Part shown: positions 9,155-17,401 of the stretch, piece after piece
Layout: every line of letters begins with the position of its first letter
Numbering within the stretch: position 1 is the stretch's first letter
Source: Pseudomonas sp. Tri1
Lineage (GTDB): Bacteria; Pseudomonadota; Gammaproteobacteria; Pseudomonadales; Pseudomonadaceae
Reading direction: 5' to 3'
NCBI RefSeq assembly: GCF_017968885.1
Contig: NZ_CP072913.1
Location: forward strand, 4,572,001 to 4,636,000
Length of the DNA stretch: 64,000 nucleotides
The notes under the pieces: model-generated
Told to the model about the DNA's origin: nothing
What the model saw: the letters and a program-made list of their open reading frames with translations, nothing else
Database searches by the model: none
Translations under genes and position numbers: made by a program

Positions 9155-10897
9155 TTATTTGCGTGCTGCCTCCCACGACTTCAACAGCTCGGTGTAGCTC
9201 ACTGTTTCGCCTTTAGGCTTCTCGTTCGCCAGTTTCGGCTTCGGTGCACCCGGTTGGTCGAACCAGTATTGCGCGTCGCGCTCGGGGTTCATTTTCGGAG
9301 CGCAGGTGGCTTGGGCCTTTGAGCGTTCCAGACGCGTCATGATCGCGTCCTGGTCCTTGGCCAAACCGTCGAGCGCCTGTTGCGGAGTCTTCTCGCCGCT
9401 GGCAGCTTCGGCGATGTGGCTCCACCACAGCTGGGCCAGGCGCGGGTAGTCCGGCACGTTGGTCCCGGTCGGAGTCCATTGCACGCGGGCCGGGCTGCGG
9501 TAGAACTCCACCAGGCCACCGAGTTTCGGCGCCAGCTCGGTCATCGCCTGGGAGTTGATGTCCGACTCACGAATCGGCGTCAGGCCAACGATGGTCTTCT
9601 TCAGCGACACGGTCTTGGACGTCACGAACTGCGCATAGAGCCAGGCCGCGAGTTTCTGTTTCTCAGGCGTGGACTTCATGAATGTCCAGGAACCCACGTC
9701 CTGATACCCCAGCTTCATGCCCTCCTCCCAATACGGACCGCGTGGCGAAGGCGCCATGCGCCATTTCGGCGTGCCATCGGCGTTCACCACCGGCAGGCCC
9801 GGCTTGGTCATGTCGGCGGTAAACGCGGTGTACCAGAAAATCTGCTGGGCGATGTTGCCTTGGGACGGTACCGGACCTGATTCGGAGAAGGTCATGCCCG
9901 CCGCTTCCGGTGGCGCGTACTTCTTCAGCCAGTCCACGTACTTGGTGGTGGCAAACACCGCCGCCGGCCCGTTGGTATCGCCGCCACGGGTCACGCTGGA
10001 ACCGACCGGATGGCAGTCTTCGACGCGAATACCCCACTCGTCCACCGGCAGACCATTGGGCAGGCCCTTGTCGCCGCCGCCAGCCATGGAGAACCAGGCA
10101 TCGGTGAAGCGCCAGCCCAGGGACGGGTCTTTCTTGCCATAGTCCATGTGGCCGTAGACGCGCTTGCCGTCGATCTCCTTGACGTCTTCGGAGAAGAACT
10201 TGGCAATGTCCTCATAGGCCGACCAGTTCACCGGTACACCCAGCTCGTAGCCGTATTTCTCCTTGAACTTGGCCTTCAGCTCCGGGCGCTCGAACCAGTC
10301 GGCGCGGAACCAGTACAAGTTGGCGAATTGTTGGTCGGGCAGTTGATAGATCTTGCCGTCCGGCGCGGTGGTGAAGGAGATGCCGATGAAGTCCTTGATG
10401 TCCAGGGTCGGCGAGGTGAAATTCTTGCCTTCGTTGGCCATCAGGTCGGTGATCGACTCGGTCTTGCCGTAGCGAAAGTGCGTACCGATCAGGTCCGAGT
10501 CGTTGACCCAGCCGTCATAGATGTTCTTGTCCGACTGCATCACCGTCTGCATCTTCTCCACCACATCGCCTTCTTGCAGAAGGTCATGGGTCAACTGGAT
10601 CCCGGTGATTTCAGTGAAGGCCTTGGCCAGTACCTTGGACTCGTATTCGTGAGTGGTGAGGGTTTCCGACACCACGTTGATCTTCATACCGCGAAACGGC
10701 TCGGATGCCTTGATGAACCATTTGAGTTCTTCAAGCTGCTGGGCTTCCGTCAGGGTCGACGGCTTGAATTCACTGCCGATCCATTTTTTAGCGGCGTCTT
10801 CATAGGCGTCGGCCCAGGCCGCAGCACTTAGCCCGCTGAGTGCCAGCATGGCTGCCAATGAAACGCTATGTCGCAGCTTATTGTTTTTATTGAACAT
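9155..10897 (-). CDS. ABC importer substrate-binding protein (GlpV-like)
   Basis: A 580-residue periplasmic binding protein with a clear signal peptide (basic start, LAAMLALSGLSAAAWADA). It is longer than typical sugar-binding proteins, as are the GlpV-type binding proteins of the rhizobial glycerol importer. Motifs such as YQLPDQQFANLYWFRADWF and WGIRVEDCHPVGSS are typical of this subgroup. It is the last gene of the six-gene operon and is separated from the DUF2160 gene by a strong stem-loop that may raise its relative mRNA level. The ligand is probably glycerol or another small polyol, inferred from architecture only; no glpK or glpD gene is adjacent. Confidence 0.85.
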   Translation of the reverse strand: MFNKNNKLRHSVSLAAMLALSGLSAAAWADAYEDAAKKWIGSEFKPSTLTEAQQLEELKWFIKASEPFRGMKINVVSETLTTHEYESKVLAKAFTEITGIQLTHDLLQEGDVVEKMQTVMQSDKNIYDGWVNDSDLIGTHFRYGKTESITDLMANEGKNFTSPTLDIKDFIGISFTTAPDGKIYQLPDQQFANLYWFRADWFERPELKAKFKEKYGYELGVPVNWSAYEDIAKFFSEDVKEIDGKRVYGHMDYGKKDPSLGWRFTDAWFSMAGGGDKGLPNGLPVDEWGIRVEDCHPVGSSVTRGGDTNGPAAVFATTKYVDWLKKYAPPEAAGMTFSESGPVPSQGNIAQQIFWYTAFTADMTKPGLPVVNADGTPKWRMAPSPRGPYWEEGMKLGYQDVGSWTFMKSTPEKQKLAAWLYAQFVTSKTVSLKKTIVGLTPIRESDINSQAMTELAPKLGGLVEFYRSPARVQWTPTGTNVPDYPRLAQLWWSHIAEAASGEKTPQQALDGLAKDQDAIMTRLERSKAQATCAPKMNPERDAQYWFDQPGAPKPKLANEKPKGETVSYTELLKSWEAARK

Positions 10898-10992: not shown

Positions 10993-11268
10993 TTAGCCCC
11001 ACCGCATCACTGCCAACAGCCACACCAAAGACAACGCGAACGCTATCCAGATGCTCCAGTCAGTAGCACCGATCACCAGCATATGCAGGTAGGCGCTACC
11101 GAGAAGACCGATAAACAACCGATCGCCACGGGTGGTGGCAATCGGCAGGAAACCCCGTCGAGGGATACTCGGCGAACGCAATTCCCACGTGGTCATGCCT
11201 GCCAGCAGCACGGCAATGACCCCAAAGAACACCGCCGTGGGGGCGGTCCAGTTCATCCATTCCATCAT
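10993..11268 (-). CDS. DUF2160 small membrane protein (GlpU-like)
   Basis: A 91-residue protein with about three hydrophobic segments (AVFFGVIAVLLAGMTTW, LFIGLLGSAYLHMLVIG, WIAFALSLVWLLAVM). Start 11268 is preferred because GAGGAG lies just upstream and two ATG codons are adjacent; the frame opens slightly earlier inside the permease gene. DUF2160 proteins occur specifically in glycerol-type ABC operons (GlpU in Rhizobium), where their role is unknown. Position between the second permease and the binding protein is the same as in the rhizobial operon. Confidence 0.85.
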   Translation of the reverse strand: MMEWMNWTAPTAVFFGVIAVLLAGMTTWELRSPSIPRRGFLPIATTRGDRLFIGLLGSAYLHMLVIGATDWSIWIAFALSLVWLLAVMRWG

Positions 11269-11275
11269 CGACTCC

Positions 11276-12079
<804 letters not shown>

Positions 12080-12086
12080 GCGGGCC

Positions 12087-12953
12087 TCAACGGTTGGCGT
12101 CGGAGTGAGTCATGGCGGTGTAGAACAGCCACGACACCAACAGAATGATCAGGAAGTACACCAGGGAAAACGCCGCCGCCGGGCCCAGGTCGAATTGACC
12201 GATGGCCATCTGCGTCAGAGTCTGGCTCAGGAACGTGGTGGCGTTACCCGGCCCGCCGCCCGTCAGCACGAACGGCTCGGTGTAGATCATGAAACTGTCC
12301 ATGAAGCGCAGCATCACCGCGATCAGCAGCACGCTCTTCATCTTCGGCAACTGGATGTGCCGGAACACCGCCCAATTGGACGCCCGGTCGATTCGCGCGG
12401 CCTGGTAGTACACATCCGGAATCGCCCGCAGCCCCGAGTAACACAGCAGCGCCACCAGGGAGGTCCAGTGCCAGACGTCCATCACCAACACCGTGACCCA
12501 GGCGTCCATGGTGTTGGCCGCATAGTTGTAGTTGATGCCCAGGCCGTTGAGGGCGGAGCCCAGCAGGCCGATGTCGGCGCGGCCGAAAATCTGCCAGATG
12601 GTGCCCACCACGTTCCATGGAATCAGCAATGGAATTGCCAGGATGATCAACACCAGGGATGACCATTTGCCCTTGGTCGGCATGGTCAGGGCGATGGCAA
12701 TGCCCAGTGGGATTTCAATCAGCAGCACGCACGCCGAGTAGATGAACTGGCGCAACAGCGAATCGTGCAGCCGCGGATCGAGCAGCACCTGCTTGTACCA
12801 GTCGGCGCCGACGAAGTAGCGGCTGGACTGGTCGAAGATGTCCTGCACCGAATAGTTGACCACGGTCATCATCGGGATCACGGCGCTGAACGCCACCAGC
12901 AGGAACACCGGCAACACCAGCCACCAGGCCTTGTTGTTCTGCACCTTGTTCAT
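12087..12953 (-). CDS. ABC importer permease, MalF/UgpA type (GlpP-like)
   Basis: A 288-residue permease with six predicted membrane segments and an EAA loop (YYQAARIDRASNWAVFRHI). The TEPFVLTGGGPGNAT segment is typical of CUT1 permeases. The ATG overlaps the stop of the upstream ATPase gene (12950-12953). Together with the next permease it should form the membrane channel of the importer. Confidence 0.9.
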   Translation of the reverse strand: MNKVQNNKAWWLVLPVFLLVAFSAVIPMMTVVNYSVQDIFDQSSRYFVGADWYKQVLLDPRLHDSLLRQFIYSACVLLIEIPLGIAIALTMPTKGKWSSLVLIILAIPLLIPWNVVGTIWQIFGRADIGLLGSALNGLGINYNYAANTMDAWVTVLVMDVWHWTSLVALLCYSGLRAIPDVYYQAARIDRASNWAVFRHIQLPKMKSVLLIAVMLRFMDSFMIYTEPFVLTGGGPGNATTFLSQTLTQMAIGQFDLGPAAAFSLVYFLIILLVSWLFYTAMTHSDANR

Positions 12954-14059
12954 GGCTGCACCTCGCTCAGTGGTTCCAGCAAGTATTCATCGGCATAAAC
13001 CATCAGCCACTGGGCCGGAAAACTGATGTACGCCGTGCCTTCGGGCACCGGCTTGTCTTCGGCCAGGCGCACTTTCAGCGGCGCGCCATCGAGGTTGAGG
13101 GTCAGGATCTTGTAGGTGCCCAGGTCTTCGACGTGGACCACGTCGGCGCGCATCGCATCGTCGTAAGGCCCGTCCCAGACATGGACGAATTCCGGCCGAA
13201 TACCGACCTTCAGGCTTTTGCCTTGAGCCTCGGCAATGCGCTGCTGCAAGGTGGCGGACAGGGGCAAATGAGTCGATGCGAAGCCGACGCCACCGGGCTG
13301 CGCCGTGACCTCGATCAGGTTCATTCCCGGGCTGCCAATGAAGTAGCCGACAAAGGTGTGGCTCGGACGCTCGAACAGATCCCGCGGCGTGCCGAACTGC
13401 ACGATCTGGCCGCCATACATCACGGCGATCTTGTCGGCGAAGGTGGAGGCCTCCAACTGATCGTGAGTGACGTAGACCATGGTGATGTTGAACTGCTCAT
13501 GGATCTGCTTGAGCTTGCGCCGCAGCTTCCATTTCAAGTGCGGGTCGATCACCGTCAGCGGTTCGTCGAACAGGATCGCCGACACGTCGTCGCGCACCAA
13601 CCCGCGGCCCATGGAGACTTTCTGTTTTTCATCGGCGGTGAGATTGCGGGCCTTTTTGTCCAGCAGGCTTTGCAGGTCCAGGACCTCGGCGATTTCCTGC
13701 ACCTTGGTGTGAATCCTGGCCTCGGCCATGCCCTGGTTGCGCAGTGGGAACGCCAGGTTATCGAACACCGTCATGGTGTCGTACACCACCGGGAACTGGA
13801 ACACCTGGGCAATGTTACGCCGCTCCGGAGTCAGGTCGTTGACGACTTTGCTGTCGAACATCACCTGGCCTTCGGAGGGGCTGAGCAGTCCGGAAATGAT
13901 ATTGAGCAAGGTGGATTTGCCACAGCCCGAGGGCCCGAGCAACGCATAAGCGCCGCCCTGCTCCCAGATATGGTTCATCTCGCGGATCGCGTAGTCCTCG
14001 GGGCCCGCCGGGGTGCTGGTGTAGCTGTGGGCGAGGTTCTGCAAACGAATTTCAGCCAT
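12950..14059 (-). CDS. ABC importer ATPase with degenerate signature motif (GlpT-like)
   Basis: 369 residues: nucleotide-binding domain followed by a TOBE-like domain from about residue 240. Walker A is intact (GPSGCGKST, 42-50), as are the Q-loop (FQFP), Walker B with its glutamate (ILFDEP) and the H-loop (VTHDQ). The ABC signature, however, reads LTADEKQ instead of LSGGQ. The partner gene immediately upstream (overlap of 1 base at 14059) has an intact LSGGQ but lacks the H-loop histidine. A heterodimer would therefore have one canonical and one doubly degenerate ATP site. The family is certain; the functional consequence is inferred. Confidence 0.9.
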   Translation of the reverse strand: MAEIRLQNLAHSYTSTPAGPEDYAIREMNHIWEQGGAYALLGPSGCGKSTLLNIISGLLSPSEGQVMFDSKVVNDLTPERRNIAQVFQFPVVYDTMTVFDNLAFPLRNQGMAEARIHTKVQEIAEVLDLQSLLDKKARNLTADEKQKVSMGRGLVRDDVSAILFDEPLTVIDPHLKWKLRRKLKQIHEQFNITMVYVTHDQLEASTFADKIAVMYGGQIVQFGTPRDLFERPSHTFVGYFIGSPGMNLIEVTAQPGGVGFASTHLPLSATLQQRIAEAQGKSLKVGIRPEFVHVWDGPYDDAMRADVVHVEDLGTYKILTLNLDGAPLKVRLAEDKPVPEGTAYISFPAQWLMVYADEYLLEPLSEVQP

Positions 14060-15153
14060 CAGGCAACCCTCGCGATACGCTGGCCAGGGGCTTGGACCAG
14101 CTTGCCCTGGGCATCGAAAACAAACAGTTTGTGGGTCGGGATGTAAATGCGGATCGGCGCATCCACGTCGTACTCATGCACCCCGGGCAAGTGCAGCACC
14201 AACAGGAAATGCTCGTTGCGCACATGCAGGAAGGTCTCCGAGCCACTGATCTCGGCCACCTCCACGGTCACCGCCAGTTCAAGATCGTCATCGTTGCTGG
14301 GCACCAGGGAGATATGGCTGGGACGCACACCAAAGCGGAACTCGCCCTCGCCTACCGGGCGCAGGTCGACGTTCAGCGGGAAGTGCACGAAATTGGCAAA
14401 GCTCACTTCATTGCCGGCAATGCGACCGGGCATGAGGTTGATGGGCGGCTCGGAAAACAGCTCGGCGGCCAACACAGTCTGCGGCTGGTGATACACCGAG
14501 GACGATTTGCCGCTCTGGATGATCCGCCCCTCATGCAGAATCGTGGTGGTACCGCCCAAGGCCAATGCTTCGTTGGGCTCGGTGGTGGCGTAGACGGCGA
14601 TGGTGTGGCGGGCCTGGAACAGTTCGCGCATTTCCTGGCGAAGTTCCTCACGCAGCTTGTAGTCCAGGTTTACCAGCGGCTCATCGAACAGGATCAGTTC
14701 GGCGTCCTTGACCAGCGCCCGAGCCATGGCCGTGCGTTGCTGCTGGCCGCCGGACAATTCCAGCGGATGGCGCTGCAGGAACTTCTCGATGCGCAGCATC
14801 CTGGCGGTTTCCAGCACCTTGCTCTGGATTACCTCGTTGGACACACCGGCCTGGCGCAGCGGCGAGGCGATGTTTTCGAAAACAGTCATGGTCGGGTAAT
14901 TGATGAACTGCTGATAGACCATCGACACGTTGCGCAACCGCACCGGGCGCTTGGTGACGTCGACGCCGTTCATCAGGATGCGACCGCTGTCGGGCTTGTC
15001 GAGTCCGGCCATCAGCCGCATCAGGCTGGTCTTGCCGGACAGCGTGCGGCCCAGCAGGACGTTGAAGGATCCGGGTTCGAAACTCAGATTGGCATCGTCG
15101 ATCCAGGTCTGGCCTTCGACGGTGCGACAGATGTGCTCAAGCGTTAATGACAT
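14059..15153 (-). CDS. ABC importer ATPase lacking H-loop histidine (GlpS-like)
   Basis: 364 residues, first gene of the operon. Walker A is atypical but usable (GRTLSGKT, 35-42); the Q-loop is YQQF, the signature LSGGQQQR is intact, and Walker B is LILFDEP. Where a histidine normally switches the active site (THDQ), this protein has TTEP. A C-terminal TOBE-like domain follows (FGVRPSHISLVP). Its defects are complementary to those of the downstream ATPase. A sigma54-type promoter lies about 47 bases upstream of the ATG. Confidence 0.9.
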   Translation of the reverse strand: MSLTLEHICRTVEGQTWIDDANLSFEPGSFNVLLGRTLSGKTSLMRLMAGLDKPDSGRILMNGVDVTKRPVRLRNVSMVYQQFINYPTMTVFENIASPLRQAGVSNEVIQSKVLETARMLRIEKFLQRHPLELSGGQQQRTAMARALVKDAELILFDEPLVNLDYKLREELRQEMRELFQARHTIAVYATTEPNEALALGGTTTILHEGRIIQSGKSSSVYHQPQTVLAAELFSEPPINLMPGRIAGNEVSFANFVHFPLNVDLRPVGEGEFRFGVRPSHISLVPSNDDDLELAVTVEVAEISGSETFLHVRNEHFLLVLHLPGVHEYDVDAPIRIYIPTHKLFVFDAQGKLVQAPGQRIARVA

Positions 15154-15199
15154 GGCTCGGCCTTTTTATTATTTGGAGTCAAGCGACCCGAGTTTAAAA

Positions 15200-15214
15200 G
15201 CGAAAGCCGTGCCA
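15200..15214 (-). promoter_or_regulatory. Sigma54 (-24/-12) promoter of the ABC importer operon
   Basis: On the minus strand the sequence reads TGGCACGGCTTTCGC, which is TGGCAC-N5-TCGC. It keeps the invariant GG and GC at the right spacing, with a single mismatch to TTGC. It lies 47 bases upstream of the first ATPase gene and next to a divergent sigma54-activator gene. Confidence 0.75.
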
Positions 15215-15550: not shown

Positions 15551-17401
15551 ATGGCCGCACCTGCCCCCGCCTTGTCCCATGACGCCATTATCCAGGCCTC
15601 CTGGTCCCGTTGCCGCGCCTTTGGCCTGAACCATCAGAGCGTGCCGGCCTTCGATCAGCTCCCCGCCGAAGGCATCGCCCAGTTGCTGGAAAGCCAGCAT
15701 TCGCTGGTGCAGACCACCCATCAGGAAGTCTTGCCGTACTACGAGAACATCCTGAGTAACTCCAACTGCCTGATCATGCTGGCCGACAACCAGGGCCAGG
15801 TGTTGACCTCCTGGGGCACCCAACGCTTCATCGAGCCGAAACTGGCCCACGGTTTCAGCGCCGGGGCGAGCTGGATGGAGCGCTGCAGCGGCACCAATGC
15901 CATCGGTACCGCACTGGCCTGTGAACAGGCGGTGCACATCGAACACGATGAACACTTCCTCAAGGCCAACCGCTTCATGACCGGCTCCGCCGCGCCGATC
16001 TTCGACGCCGAGCGCAAGGTCATTGCGGTGCTGGACGTCTCCAGCGACAGCTACCTGCCGCCGTCCCACACCCTGGGCATGGTCAAGATGATGAGCCAGA
16101 CCGTGGAGAACCGTCTGATCCTCAACCTGTTTCGCGGTGAACACTTCCAACTGACCTTCAATACCGGCTTGAACAACCTCGACAGCCAATGGGCCGGGCT
16201 GTTGATTTTCGATGAGAGTGGCCAGGTCCTATCCGCCAACCGCCGCGCCGACAACCTGCTGGGCCTGAGCCTGTCGCGGGTCAGCATCGAAAGCCTGTTC
16301 AAGGTCTCGCTGCTGGAGCTGCTGAACCAGCCCGATGGCCTGCCGTTCGCCCTGCAAGCGTCCGGGAGCAATCGTTTCCAGTGCTTGCTCAGACGCCCAA
16401 GCCAAGTGTCGATCAAGGCACGAGTCTTCAGCGAGCCCGCGCCCACACCGGCCCTGGCTCCTGCCACCCACGTCATCAGCCTCAACACCCTGCACTTCGG
16501 TGACAGCCGCGTGGAAAAAGCCGTGCGCCAGGCCGAGCGCTTGCTGGAAAAGGACATTCCGCTGCTGATCCACGGCGAGACCGGGGTGGGCAAGGAAGTG
16601 TTCGTCAAAGCCCTGCACCAGGCCAGTTCGCGCTGCAAGCAGCCGTTCATTGCCGTCAACTGCGCGGCGATTCCCGCTGAGCTGGTGGAATCGGAACTGT
16701 TCGGCTACGAAAAAGGCGCCTTCACCGGCGCCAACCAGAAGGGCAGCATCGGCCTGATCCGCAAGGCCGACCGTGGCACGCTGTTCCTCGACGAGATTGG
16801 CGACATGCCCTTGCCGACCCAGGCCCGGCTGTTGCGAGTCTTGCAGGAACGTTGTGTGCAACCGGTGGGCAGCGCCGAGCTGTTCCCGGTAGACATCCGC
16901 ATCATCTCCGCCACCAACCGCTCGTTGCGCGAACAGGTGCAACTGGGGCGGTTTCGCGAAGACTTGTATTACCGCATCGGCGGCTTGACCCTGGAATTGC
17001 CACCGCTGCGTGAGCGCAGTGACAAGCAGGCCTTGTTCAAGCGCCTCTGGGAACACCATCGCGAACCGACCCAGTGGGCCGGTTTGAGCCGCGAGGTATT
17101 GGACCTGTTCGAGCGCCATCCATGGCCGGGCAACCTGCGCCAGGTCAGCAGCGTGCTGCAAGTGGCCCTGGCGATGGCCGAGGAACAGCCGATCCGCCCG
17201 GAACACCTGCCCGACGATTTCTTTGTCGACCTTGAAATGGAACCGGTGGAAACACCCGAACCGCTGGCGGTGGACTTGAACGATATCGAGGACCTGAACC
17301 GCCAGTTGCAGGCGGTGGGCGGGAATATTTCGCACCTGGCGCGACGGCTGGGGGTCAGCCGTAATACCTTGTACAAGCGCCTGCGCCAACTGGAAAACTG
17401 A
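15551..17401 (+). CDS. Sigma54-dependent activator, AcoR type
   Basis: 616 residues. An N-terminal GAF-type sensory region carries the AcoR-like CSGTNAIGTAL motif near residue 114. An AAA+ domain follows from about residue 320, with Walker A GETGVGKE, the sigma54-contact loop ESELFGYEKGAFTGA, Walker B LFLDEIGD and the R-finger region RFREDLYYRI. The C-terminal Fis-type helix-turn-helix is NISHLARRLGVSRNTLYKRL. It is divergent from the importer operon, whose promoter is sigma54-like, so it very probably activates that operon in response to a small-molecule effector bound by the GAF domain. AcoR itself responds to acetoin; the effector here is unknown. Confidence 0.9.
   Translation: MAAPAPALSHDAIIQASWSRCRAFGLNHQSVPAFDQLPAEGIAQLLESQHSLVQTTHQEVLPYYENILSNSNCLIMLADNQGQVLTSWGTQRFIEPKLAHGFSAGASWMERCSGTNAIGTALACEQAVHIEHDEHFLKANRFMTGSAAPIFDAERKVIAVLDVSSDSYLPPSHTLGMVKMMSQTVENRLILNLFRGEHFQLTFNTGLNNLDSQWAGLLIFDESGQVLSANRRADNLLGLSLSRVSIESLFKVSLLELLNQPDGLPFALQASGSNRFQCLLRRPSQVSIKARVFSEPAPTPALAPATHVISLNTLHFGDSRVEKAVRQAERLLEKDIPLLIHGETGVGKEVFVKALHQASSRCKQPFIAVNCAAIPAELVESELFGYEKGAFTGANQKGSIGLIRKADRGTLFLDEIGDMPLPTQARLLRVLQERCVQPVGSAELFPVDIRIISATNRSLREQVQLGRFREDLYYRIGGLTLELPPLRERSDKQALFKRLWEHHREPTQWAGLSREVLDLFERHPWPGNLRQVSSVLQVALAMAEEQPIRPEHLPDDFFVDLEMEPVETPEPLAVDLNDIEDLNRQLQAVGGNISHLARRLGVSRNTLYKRLRQLEN

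Follow-up and report, generated by a model that had tools for sequence, protein, structure and literature searches.

How many ATP molecules does an importer spend on each substrate, and does it need both of its ATP sites? These long-standing questions about ATP-binding cassette (ABC) transporters have been studied mostly in symmetric, MalK-type importers, MalK being a homodimer whose two canonical sites are identical. An operon of Pseudomonas sp. Tri1, located in a stretch of 64,000 nucleotides (assembly GCF_017968885.1, contig NZ_CP072913.1, positions 4,572,001 to 4,636,000; hereafter, the window), raises them for an importer with two different ATPases, GlpS and GlpT. An initial annotation, made from the DNA alone, proposed that the motif losses of both proteins fall in one composite ATP site and leave the other canonical. 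Having compared the pair with its counterparts in other genomes and with more distant two-ATPase importers, we consider it probable, on sequence grounds, that GlpS pairs obligately with GlpT in a heterodimer in which one site hydrolyses ATP and the other, a conserved site, holds ATP or turns it over slowly.

The motifs read from the window DNA are exactly those claimed in that annotation, LSGGQ with TTEP in GlpS and THD with LTADEKQ in GlpT. The two genes and the motifs that define the two sites are as follows, with counts from the related pairs described below.

14059–15153, minus strand: GlpS-like ATPase (subunit b, 364 amino acids), with signature and D-loop kept but no H-loop His or A-loop aromatic residue
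15118–15120, minus strand: GlpS A-loop position, Val rather than an aromatic residue (Val in 79/85, aromatic in 1/85)
15028–15051, minus strand: GlpS Walker A, GRTLSGKT, Lys kept (GKT in 88/88)
14743–14757, minus strand: GlpS signature LSGGQ, canonical site (LSGGQ in 85/85)
14680–14685, minus strand: GlpS Walker B Asp-Glu, catalytic Glu kept (88/88)
14575–14586, minus strand: GlpS TTEP at the H-loop position, degenerate site (His lost in 85/85, to Thr in 80 and Ser in 5)
12950–14059, minus strand: GlpT-like ATPase (subunit a, 369 amino acids), with Walker A and B, Q-loop, His and A-loop Tyr kept but changes in the signature and D-loop
13913–13936, minus strand: GlpT Walker A, GPSGCGKS, canonical site, read from the sequence
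13622–13642, minus strand: GlpT LTADEKQ replacing LSGGQ, degenerate site (SGG in 0/85, Asp at the fourth position in 87/88)
13562–13567, minus strand: GlpT Walker B Asp-Glu, canonical site (88/88)
13544–13558, minus strand: GlpT D-loop LTVID, degenerate site (88/88)
13460–13468, minus strand: GlpT H-loop THD, canonical site (His in 85/85)

The definition of an ABC nucleotide site in PMC7756269 fits the composite-site logic used here, and because of it the site made by the nucleotide side of GlpS and the signature of GlpT is the one that holds both defects, as had been proposed. On this motif reading, the canonical site is composed of the A-loop, Walker A, Q-loop, Walker B and H-loop of GlpT with the LSGGQ and D-loop of GlpS, and all defects sit in the site that pairs the nucleotide side of GlpS with LTADEKQ and LTVID of GlpT; one composite site is fully canonical and deviations occur only in the other (the X-loop lay outside motif scoring). 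Two defects of this site go beyond the initial annotation. The GlpT D-loop reads LTVID where the D-loops of most relatives end in LD, and the A-loop position that is Tyr in 85/85 GlpT proteins is mostly Val in GlpS. In TM287/288, the D-loop of TM288 reaches as far as the nucleotide bound at the degenerate site (PMC7756269). Both GlpS and GlpT retain the Walker A Lys and the Walker B Asp-Glu. By the logic of the motifs, neither a GlpT nor a GlpS homodimer could contain a complete site.

The profile for DUF2160 (PF09928), a small membrane protein encoded in the same operon, is found in 85 of 398 sampled Pseudomonadota genomes, including that of the window; this is a widespread importer in which one site has apparently been disabled by evolution, and the question of ATP cost becomes testable from natural variants. 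All 84 fetched main DUF2160 loci contain the genes for S, T, P, Q, DUF2160 and V, with the V gene on the opposite side of glpS in some. The check that the annotation had called for, whether the two substitutions are co-conserved in DUF2160 operons, gave a uniform answer: in 85/85 pairs, GlpS has LSGGQ without the H-loop His and GlpT has the His without SGG, and independent losses, the outcome that it had named as damaging, were seen in none of them. Three pairs, from Rhizobium johnstonii (L122), a Ponticoccus two-ATPase operon with no DUF2160 or glp gene annotated (L123) and L170, bring this family, which we call family A, to 88. Among these, loss of the GlpT signature, change of the GlpT D-loop and loss of the GlpS His each occur in all 88, both subunits contribute to the same site in 88/88, and canonical-site losses number 0/88. 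Walker A Lys is kept in 88/88 of GlpS and of GlpT. The A-loop was read on 85 pairs and the tree rows, outside the pair score given below. A Lys-Gln two places past the signature Asp is found in 88/88 GlpT proteins, and because the residues of the degenerate site are themselves fixed (LTVID in 88/88, signature Asp in 87/88), the conserved replacements look like the product of selection on an altered site, not of decay.

Control ATPases show how these motifs behave elsewhere. From the loci of the best 30 of 61 GlpT-like matches in the same genome (two of these loci contain GlpS and GlpT only), we read 30 other nucleotide-binding domains (NBDs). H-loop His, Q-loop Gln and Walker B Asp-Glu are present in 30/30, SGG in 29/30 (the exception, at L207, is a long unrelated protein) and a D-loop LD in 27/30. 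A second control comprised 118 CUT1-type NBDs from other loci; one incomplete row was dropped, and the pair loci were set aside along with L128, L129, L130, L137 and L153, among which His-lost subunits occur. Losses of the signature or of any Walker, Q-loop, D-loop or H-loop motif number 0/118. A further 20 NBDs, taken later from the phylum of a Desulfovibrio metagenome-assembled genome (MAG), gave one exception (L343, Q-loop Gln to Glu). Six single-ATPase relatives with a weak DUF2160-like match and two others are canonical in 8/8 cases.

Extending GlpS similarity outward led to four more families of CUT1-type operons with two ATPases. We found families B, C and E by their similarity to ATPases that lack the H-loop His, with no selection on the partners, and so assign these three families no frequency. 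Subunit a is defined by its own signature, so the signature column provides no evidence; the losses in the partner do. The scored set is of 112 pairs: 88 in A, 12 in B (several of these rows are close relatives), five in C, four in D and three in E. Left out were a partial family C pair (L162) and a family E subunit b whose partner is absent from the fetched stretch (L159); loci that were counted under another locus, refetched or partnerless (L126–L130, L137, L153, L289–L292 and L331); the later-found family D pairs L326 and L327, both canonical; the two-ATPase loci L351 and L352, canonical throughout; and pairs of the LivG/LivF type.

Canonical-site loss was found in 0/112 two-ATPase pairs. 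In family B, whose named hosts are Alphaproteobacteria and Desulfovibrio MAGs, subunit a has signatures such as LGGSE, LGASE and MGGSQ, a D-loop LSNLE and a kept His, and subunit b has [FM]SGGE, Pro in place of the His (ATPD) and Asp or Glu in place of the Q-loop Gln. Family E combines L[AG]EGE in subunit a with a His-to-Pro change in subunit b, and a few kilobases separate its ATPase genes within what looks like a single operon. In the distant family C, subunit a has lost the signature (LSVNE or LSVNI) and the partner keeps its His, yet the same site is affected, with the catalytic Glu of subunit b changed to Asp (DDP) in 2/5 pairs (L319 and L322); the family looks, by its motifs, like an intermediate. 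Both subunits of family D are canonical apart from one LSSGD. Losses come from both subunits to the same site in 12/12 pairs of B, 3/3 of E and 2/5 of C, as in family A. When losses other than the signature are grouped by kind (D-loop, A-loop and His in A; D-loop, Gln and His in B; D-loop in 3/5 and Glu in 2/5 pairs of C; His in E), 9/9 kinds fall in the same site as the subunit a signature; these are not nine independent events, and we attach no probability to them.

Trees built without the motif columns bear on how often this asymmetry arose. A careful tree used 78 of 104 rows (26 dropped), and a quick tree used all 104. In the careful tree, the subunit groups of families A, B, C and E are each recovered as a unit (97–100% by both supports); in family D, subunit a is split and subunit b has support of 93/79. 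The a subunits of B and C are sisters (100/98), that of E is nested among canonical ATPases (97/91), and GlpT groups loosely with subunit a of family D (51/78). The position of the family E subunit suggests more than one origin. The order of the families is poorly resolved, and in the approximately unbiased (AU) test on the careful tree a single clade of all signature-lost subunits is not rejected (p 0.233). Holding these subunits together in the quick tree gave a likelihood 18 log units above the free search (p 0.784), and for GlpT held with subunit a of family B alone the gain was 14 units (p 0.726). In that tree, a branch with support 87 already sets the three His-lost subunits b apart from the rest. 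A sister relation of GlpS and GlpT from one duplication was not recovered in either tree, nor is it formally rejected. We considered independent signature loss in A, B, C and E and do not claim convergence, as the AU results (p 0.233 and 0.784) leave one clade standing. Because B and C are sisters with different partner losses, the data suggest that the signature was lost first and catalytic residues of the partner later. In two-ATPase CUT1 importers, the asymmetry may have risen stepwise in this way, by loss of the signature (C) followed by catalytic residues of the partner (A, B and E), and relatives at intermediate stages add natural variants for the question of ATP stoichiometry.

A comparable layout occurs in pairs of the LivG/LivF and UrtD/UrtE type, named by similarity (one of them by NCBIfam similarity below cut-offs). 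The pairs that we read are these.

L357, 614–2199, plus strand: LivG/LivF or UrtD/UrtE-type pair of the window's own genome
L358, 1495–2964, minus strand: LivG/LivF or UrtD/UrtE-type pair of the window's own genome
L361, 1444–3416, minus strand: LivG/LivF or UrtD/UrtE-type pair of the window's own genome
L172, 75–1531, plus strand: LivG/LivF or UrtD/UrtE-type pair

The LivF-type subunit has SGG and a Gln in the place of the H-loop His in 4/4 pairs (and Glu at the Q-loop position in 3/4), and its LivG-type partner keeps the His and departs from the canonical signature (LTQIE, LSYGQ, LAYGQ or LSHGQ) in 4/4. Like GlpS and GlpT these are separate importer ATPases, with the same composite layout in 4/4 pairs; they belong to a different importer class, however. 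LivG/LivF-type ATPases are not known to have a MalK-type regulatory domain. Judged by these motifs, they make GlpST less exceptional among importers and the general pattern stronger. That asymmetric pairs with a single hydrolysing site are recurrent among importers with separate ATPases, in at least four CUT1 subfamilies that lost different catalytic residues but always at the same composite site, along a path from D-like through C-like pairs to A, B and E and with LivG/LivF alike, the weak site being a selected ATP clamp and the cost about one ATP per substrate, is a generalization that we hold to be somewhat better than an even bet.

How would such a pair work? We infer that GlpS and GlpT would assemble as an obligate 1:1 heterodimer under the GlpP–GlpQ permease pair and that the canonical site would hydrolyse the ATP that resets the transporter, about one per cycle. 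The degenerate site would still bind nucleotide, since GlpS keeps the Walker A Lys and the Walker B Asp-Glu, would hydrolyse it slowly or not at all, and would serve as a hinge or clamp, a split of labour as described for exporters with one degenerate site. Several observations weigh against this account or against parts of its support. The heterodimer itself is predicted from sequence, and the catalytic Glu of GlpS is kept in 88/88 proteins, which leaves room for some hydrolysis at the weak site. In DppDF, a heterodimeric importer of Escherichia coli, the nucleotide analogue was bound only in DppF and yet either single Glu mutant retained ATPase activity (PMC12136057); therefore, asymmetric occupancy need not mean hydrolysis at one site. 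The D-loop change alone is weak evidence, as 3/30 other NBDs of the same genome vary there, and a simple reading of that control is complicated by the LivF/UrtE-type ATPases outside the control loci, which lack the His in 5/5 cases found. The LivG/LivF-type pairs match imperfectly, in that their D-loops differ from LD in both subunits. Further, because a single origin is not rejected by the AU tests, all pairs may descend from one ancient event, and the families may then provide no independent support.

The same conserved residues can be read in other ways. If both sites hydrolysed and the changes only tuned their rates, the GlpS His would be functionally replaced and LTADEKQ of GlpT would still close on ATP, which would agree with the kept Lys and Asp-Glu of GlpS (88/88) and with the DppDF precedent; but one site has four altered motifs, among them a signature whose fourth residue is Asp in 87/88, and exporters with comparable changes are described as degenerate (PMC7756269), which makes this reading quite unlikely. 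The weak site might instead bind no nucleotide and be a purely structural contact, its signature Asp pairing with residues of GlpS and not with ATP. The lost A-loop aromatic of GlpS and the acidic residue at the fourth signature position (87/88) point that way, but a complete GKT Walker A and Walker B Asp in 88/88 GlpS proteins are hard to explain without binding, and we regard a purely structural role as unlikely. Shared ATPases occur for some CUT1 systems, which is the sole point in favour of GlpS and GlpT serving different transporters, or acting as homodimers; with no complete site in either homodimer, glpS and glpT overlapping in the window and the two co-occurring in 84/84 loci, that arrangement is very improbable. 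Neutral decay of a redundant ATPase would fit the identities of 46% (GlpS) and 54% (GlpT) between the window and R. johnstonii, below the 68% and 82% of the permeases, but the residues of the degenerate site are fixed or nearly so across 88 pairs and the remainder of each protein is still open and MalK-like, and we give decay hardly any credence. The heterodimer with one hydrolysing and one nucleotide-holding site is, thus, the reading that we prefer.

The genes that accompany glpS and glpT in the window are the following.

12087–12953, minus strand: GlpP-like permease, BPD_transp_1, 68% identity to the R. johnstonii 3841 pRL9 permease
11276–12079, minus strand: GlpQ-like permease, BPD_transp_1, 82% identity to the R. 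johnstonii 3841 pRL9 permease
10993–11295, minus strand: DUF2160 small membrane protein (PF09928, 125.5 bits)
9155–10897, minus strand: GlpV-like substrate-binding protein, 66% identity to the annotated binding protein of the R. johnstonii operon
15199–15214, minus strand: candidate sigma-54 promoter, TGGCACGGCTTTCGCT, some 45 bases ahead of the start of glpS, 11/12 consensus positions
15551–17401, plus strand: divergent sigma-54 activator, Sigma54_activat and HTH_8

On the minus strand the order is glpS, glpT (overlapping by one base), the two permease genes, the DUF2160 gene and the gene for the large binding protein, and the closest relatives with a name are mostly from Pseudomonas. Both ATPases have an ABC_tran domain and the MalK C-terminal OB/TOBE domain and model as MalK-type ATPases in structure prediction, both permeases pass PF00528, and the binding protein, assigned by its 66% identity, has no Pfam or NCBIfam match at E 0.001; together these are the features of a MalK/CUT1-type importer. 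The best NCBIfam family for GlpS and GlpT is UgpC, itself below its own cut-off, and LivG, LivF, UrtD and UrtE are absent from the best 25 families for either. By sequence, no solved structure of the GlpST family was found, the best PDB matches (about 200–220 bits) being other sugar ATPases. The score of the candidate promoter was matched by 2/1000 shuffles, and a sigma-54-type site scoring at least 9 is present in 12/14 other loci with this divergent regulator; the operon may be under sigma-54 rather than GlpR control here. Near two glpSTPQV operons there are extra ATPases of canonical CUT1 type (L062, 2766–3893, minus strand; L090, 12843–14021, plus strand).

DUF2160-like proteins also occur beyond the asymmetric pairs. 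Single-ATPase relatives encode a protein of 77–80 amino acids with a DUF2160-like motif, GFLPI.TNWFDR.F (L116, 7953–8195, plus strand; L121, 7995–8228, minus strand), and the small subunit is therefore not tied to an asymmetric ATPase pair. Operons of family D have a hydrophobic open reading frame of 62–70 amino acids between the permease and ATPase genes (L156, 5695–5895; L157, 5718–5906; L327, 3686–3898), followed in L157 and L327 by a dihydroxyacetone kinase gene. The profile matched 0/149 genomes in the phylum of a Mycolicibacterium and 0/6 in a further small set outside Pseudomonadota, silence that is not proof of absence. In the phylum of a Clostridia MAG, 1/149 genomes (G809) gave three partial DUF2160-like matches only (L328, L329 and L330; 31.8–32.9 bits against a cut-off of 28), and no ATPase is present in these small loci or in the wider L356. 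No paper on DUF2160 was found in the open-licence literature.

The closest known system is the GlpSTPQV glycerol importer of Rhizobium and Ralstonia, with the same S-T-P-Q-DUF2160-V order and orthologous proteins. The Rhizobium glycerol transporter was reportedly described in a 2012 paper. The R. johnstonii 3841 pRL9 operon reads glpR-glpD-S-T-P-Q-DUF2160-V-glpK, and its GlpS/GlpT pair has the same substitutions as that of the window. Upstream of glpS, R. johnstonii has glpR and glpD (with glpK as a further neighbour), and the window has the divergent sigma-54 activator instead; the two neighbours scanned in the window are this activator and an alpha/beta hydrolase, neither of them glpR, glpD or glpK. 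Compared with this operon, the window ATPases (GlpS 46%, GlpT 54% identity) are less conserved than the permeases, at 68% and 82%, and than the binding protein, at 66%, with DUF2160 at 48%; in ABC importers the ATPases are usually better conserved than the permeases and binding protein, the reverse of what is seen here. By homology, glycerol is the putative substrate of the window importer, and PMC11223650 reports that glycerol induces genes so named in a strain of Ralstonia.

Among other transporters, the resemblance is one of site design more than of family. MalFGK2 and the other MalK-type CUT1 importers share the fold and ATPase family of GlpS and GlpT, yet where the MalK homodimer has two identical sites, two different NBDs would pair here, with one site degenerate. 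DppBCDF of E. coli is likewise an importer with two different ATPases and asymmetric occupancy, but each of the two is described as having functional motifs (PMC12136057). Heterodimeric type IV exporters have an exporter transmembrane fold and an NBD fused to the transmembrane domain, unlike the separate importer permeases with PF00528 found here. As the initial annotation had stated, degenerate sites are well described in exporters, in PMC7756269 for TM287/288, ABCB2/B3, ABCC1, ABCC7 and Pdr5, and these share with GlpST one canonical and one degenerate site, one half having a changed signature and the other changed catalytic residues; GlpST differs in being an importer with BPD_transp_1 permeases and in keeping the catalytic Glu of GlpS. 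Within importers, the fused RbsA and NupO of Bacillus subtilis have one degenerate ATP site, a single polypeptide carrying both NBDs and lacking the second Walker A Lys (PMC11466899), whereas GlpS and GlpT are separate MalK-type proteins from two genes, with both Lys kept. For ATP-site asymmetry in GlpST or in CUT1 importers with separate subunits, no description was found in the open-licence literature, in agreement with the annotation, although subscription papers may hold one. The exporter and fused RbsA/NupO cases being known already, GlpST carries the idea of the degenerate site from exporters onto importers with separate subunits: to judge from its motifs, GlpST would work like a degenerate-site transporter while belonging to neither the exporter nor the RbsA families.

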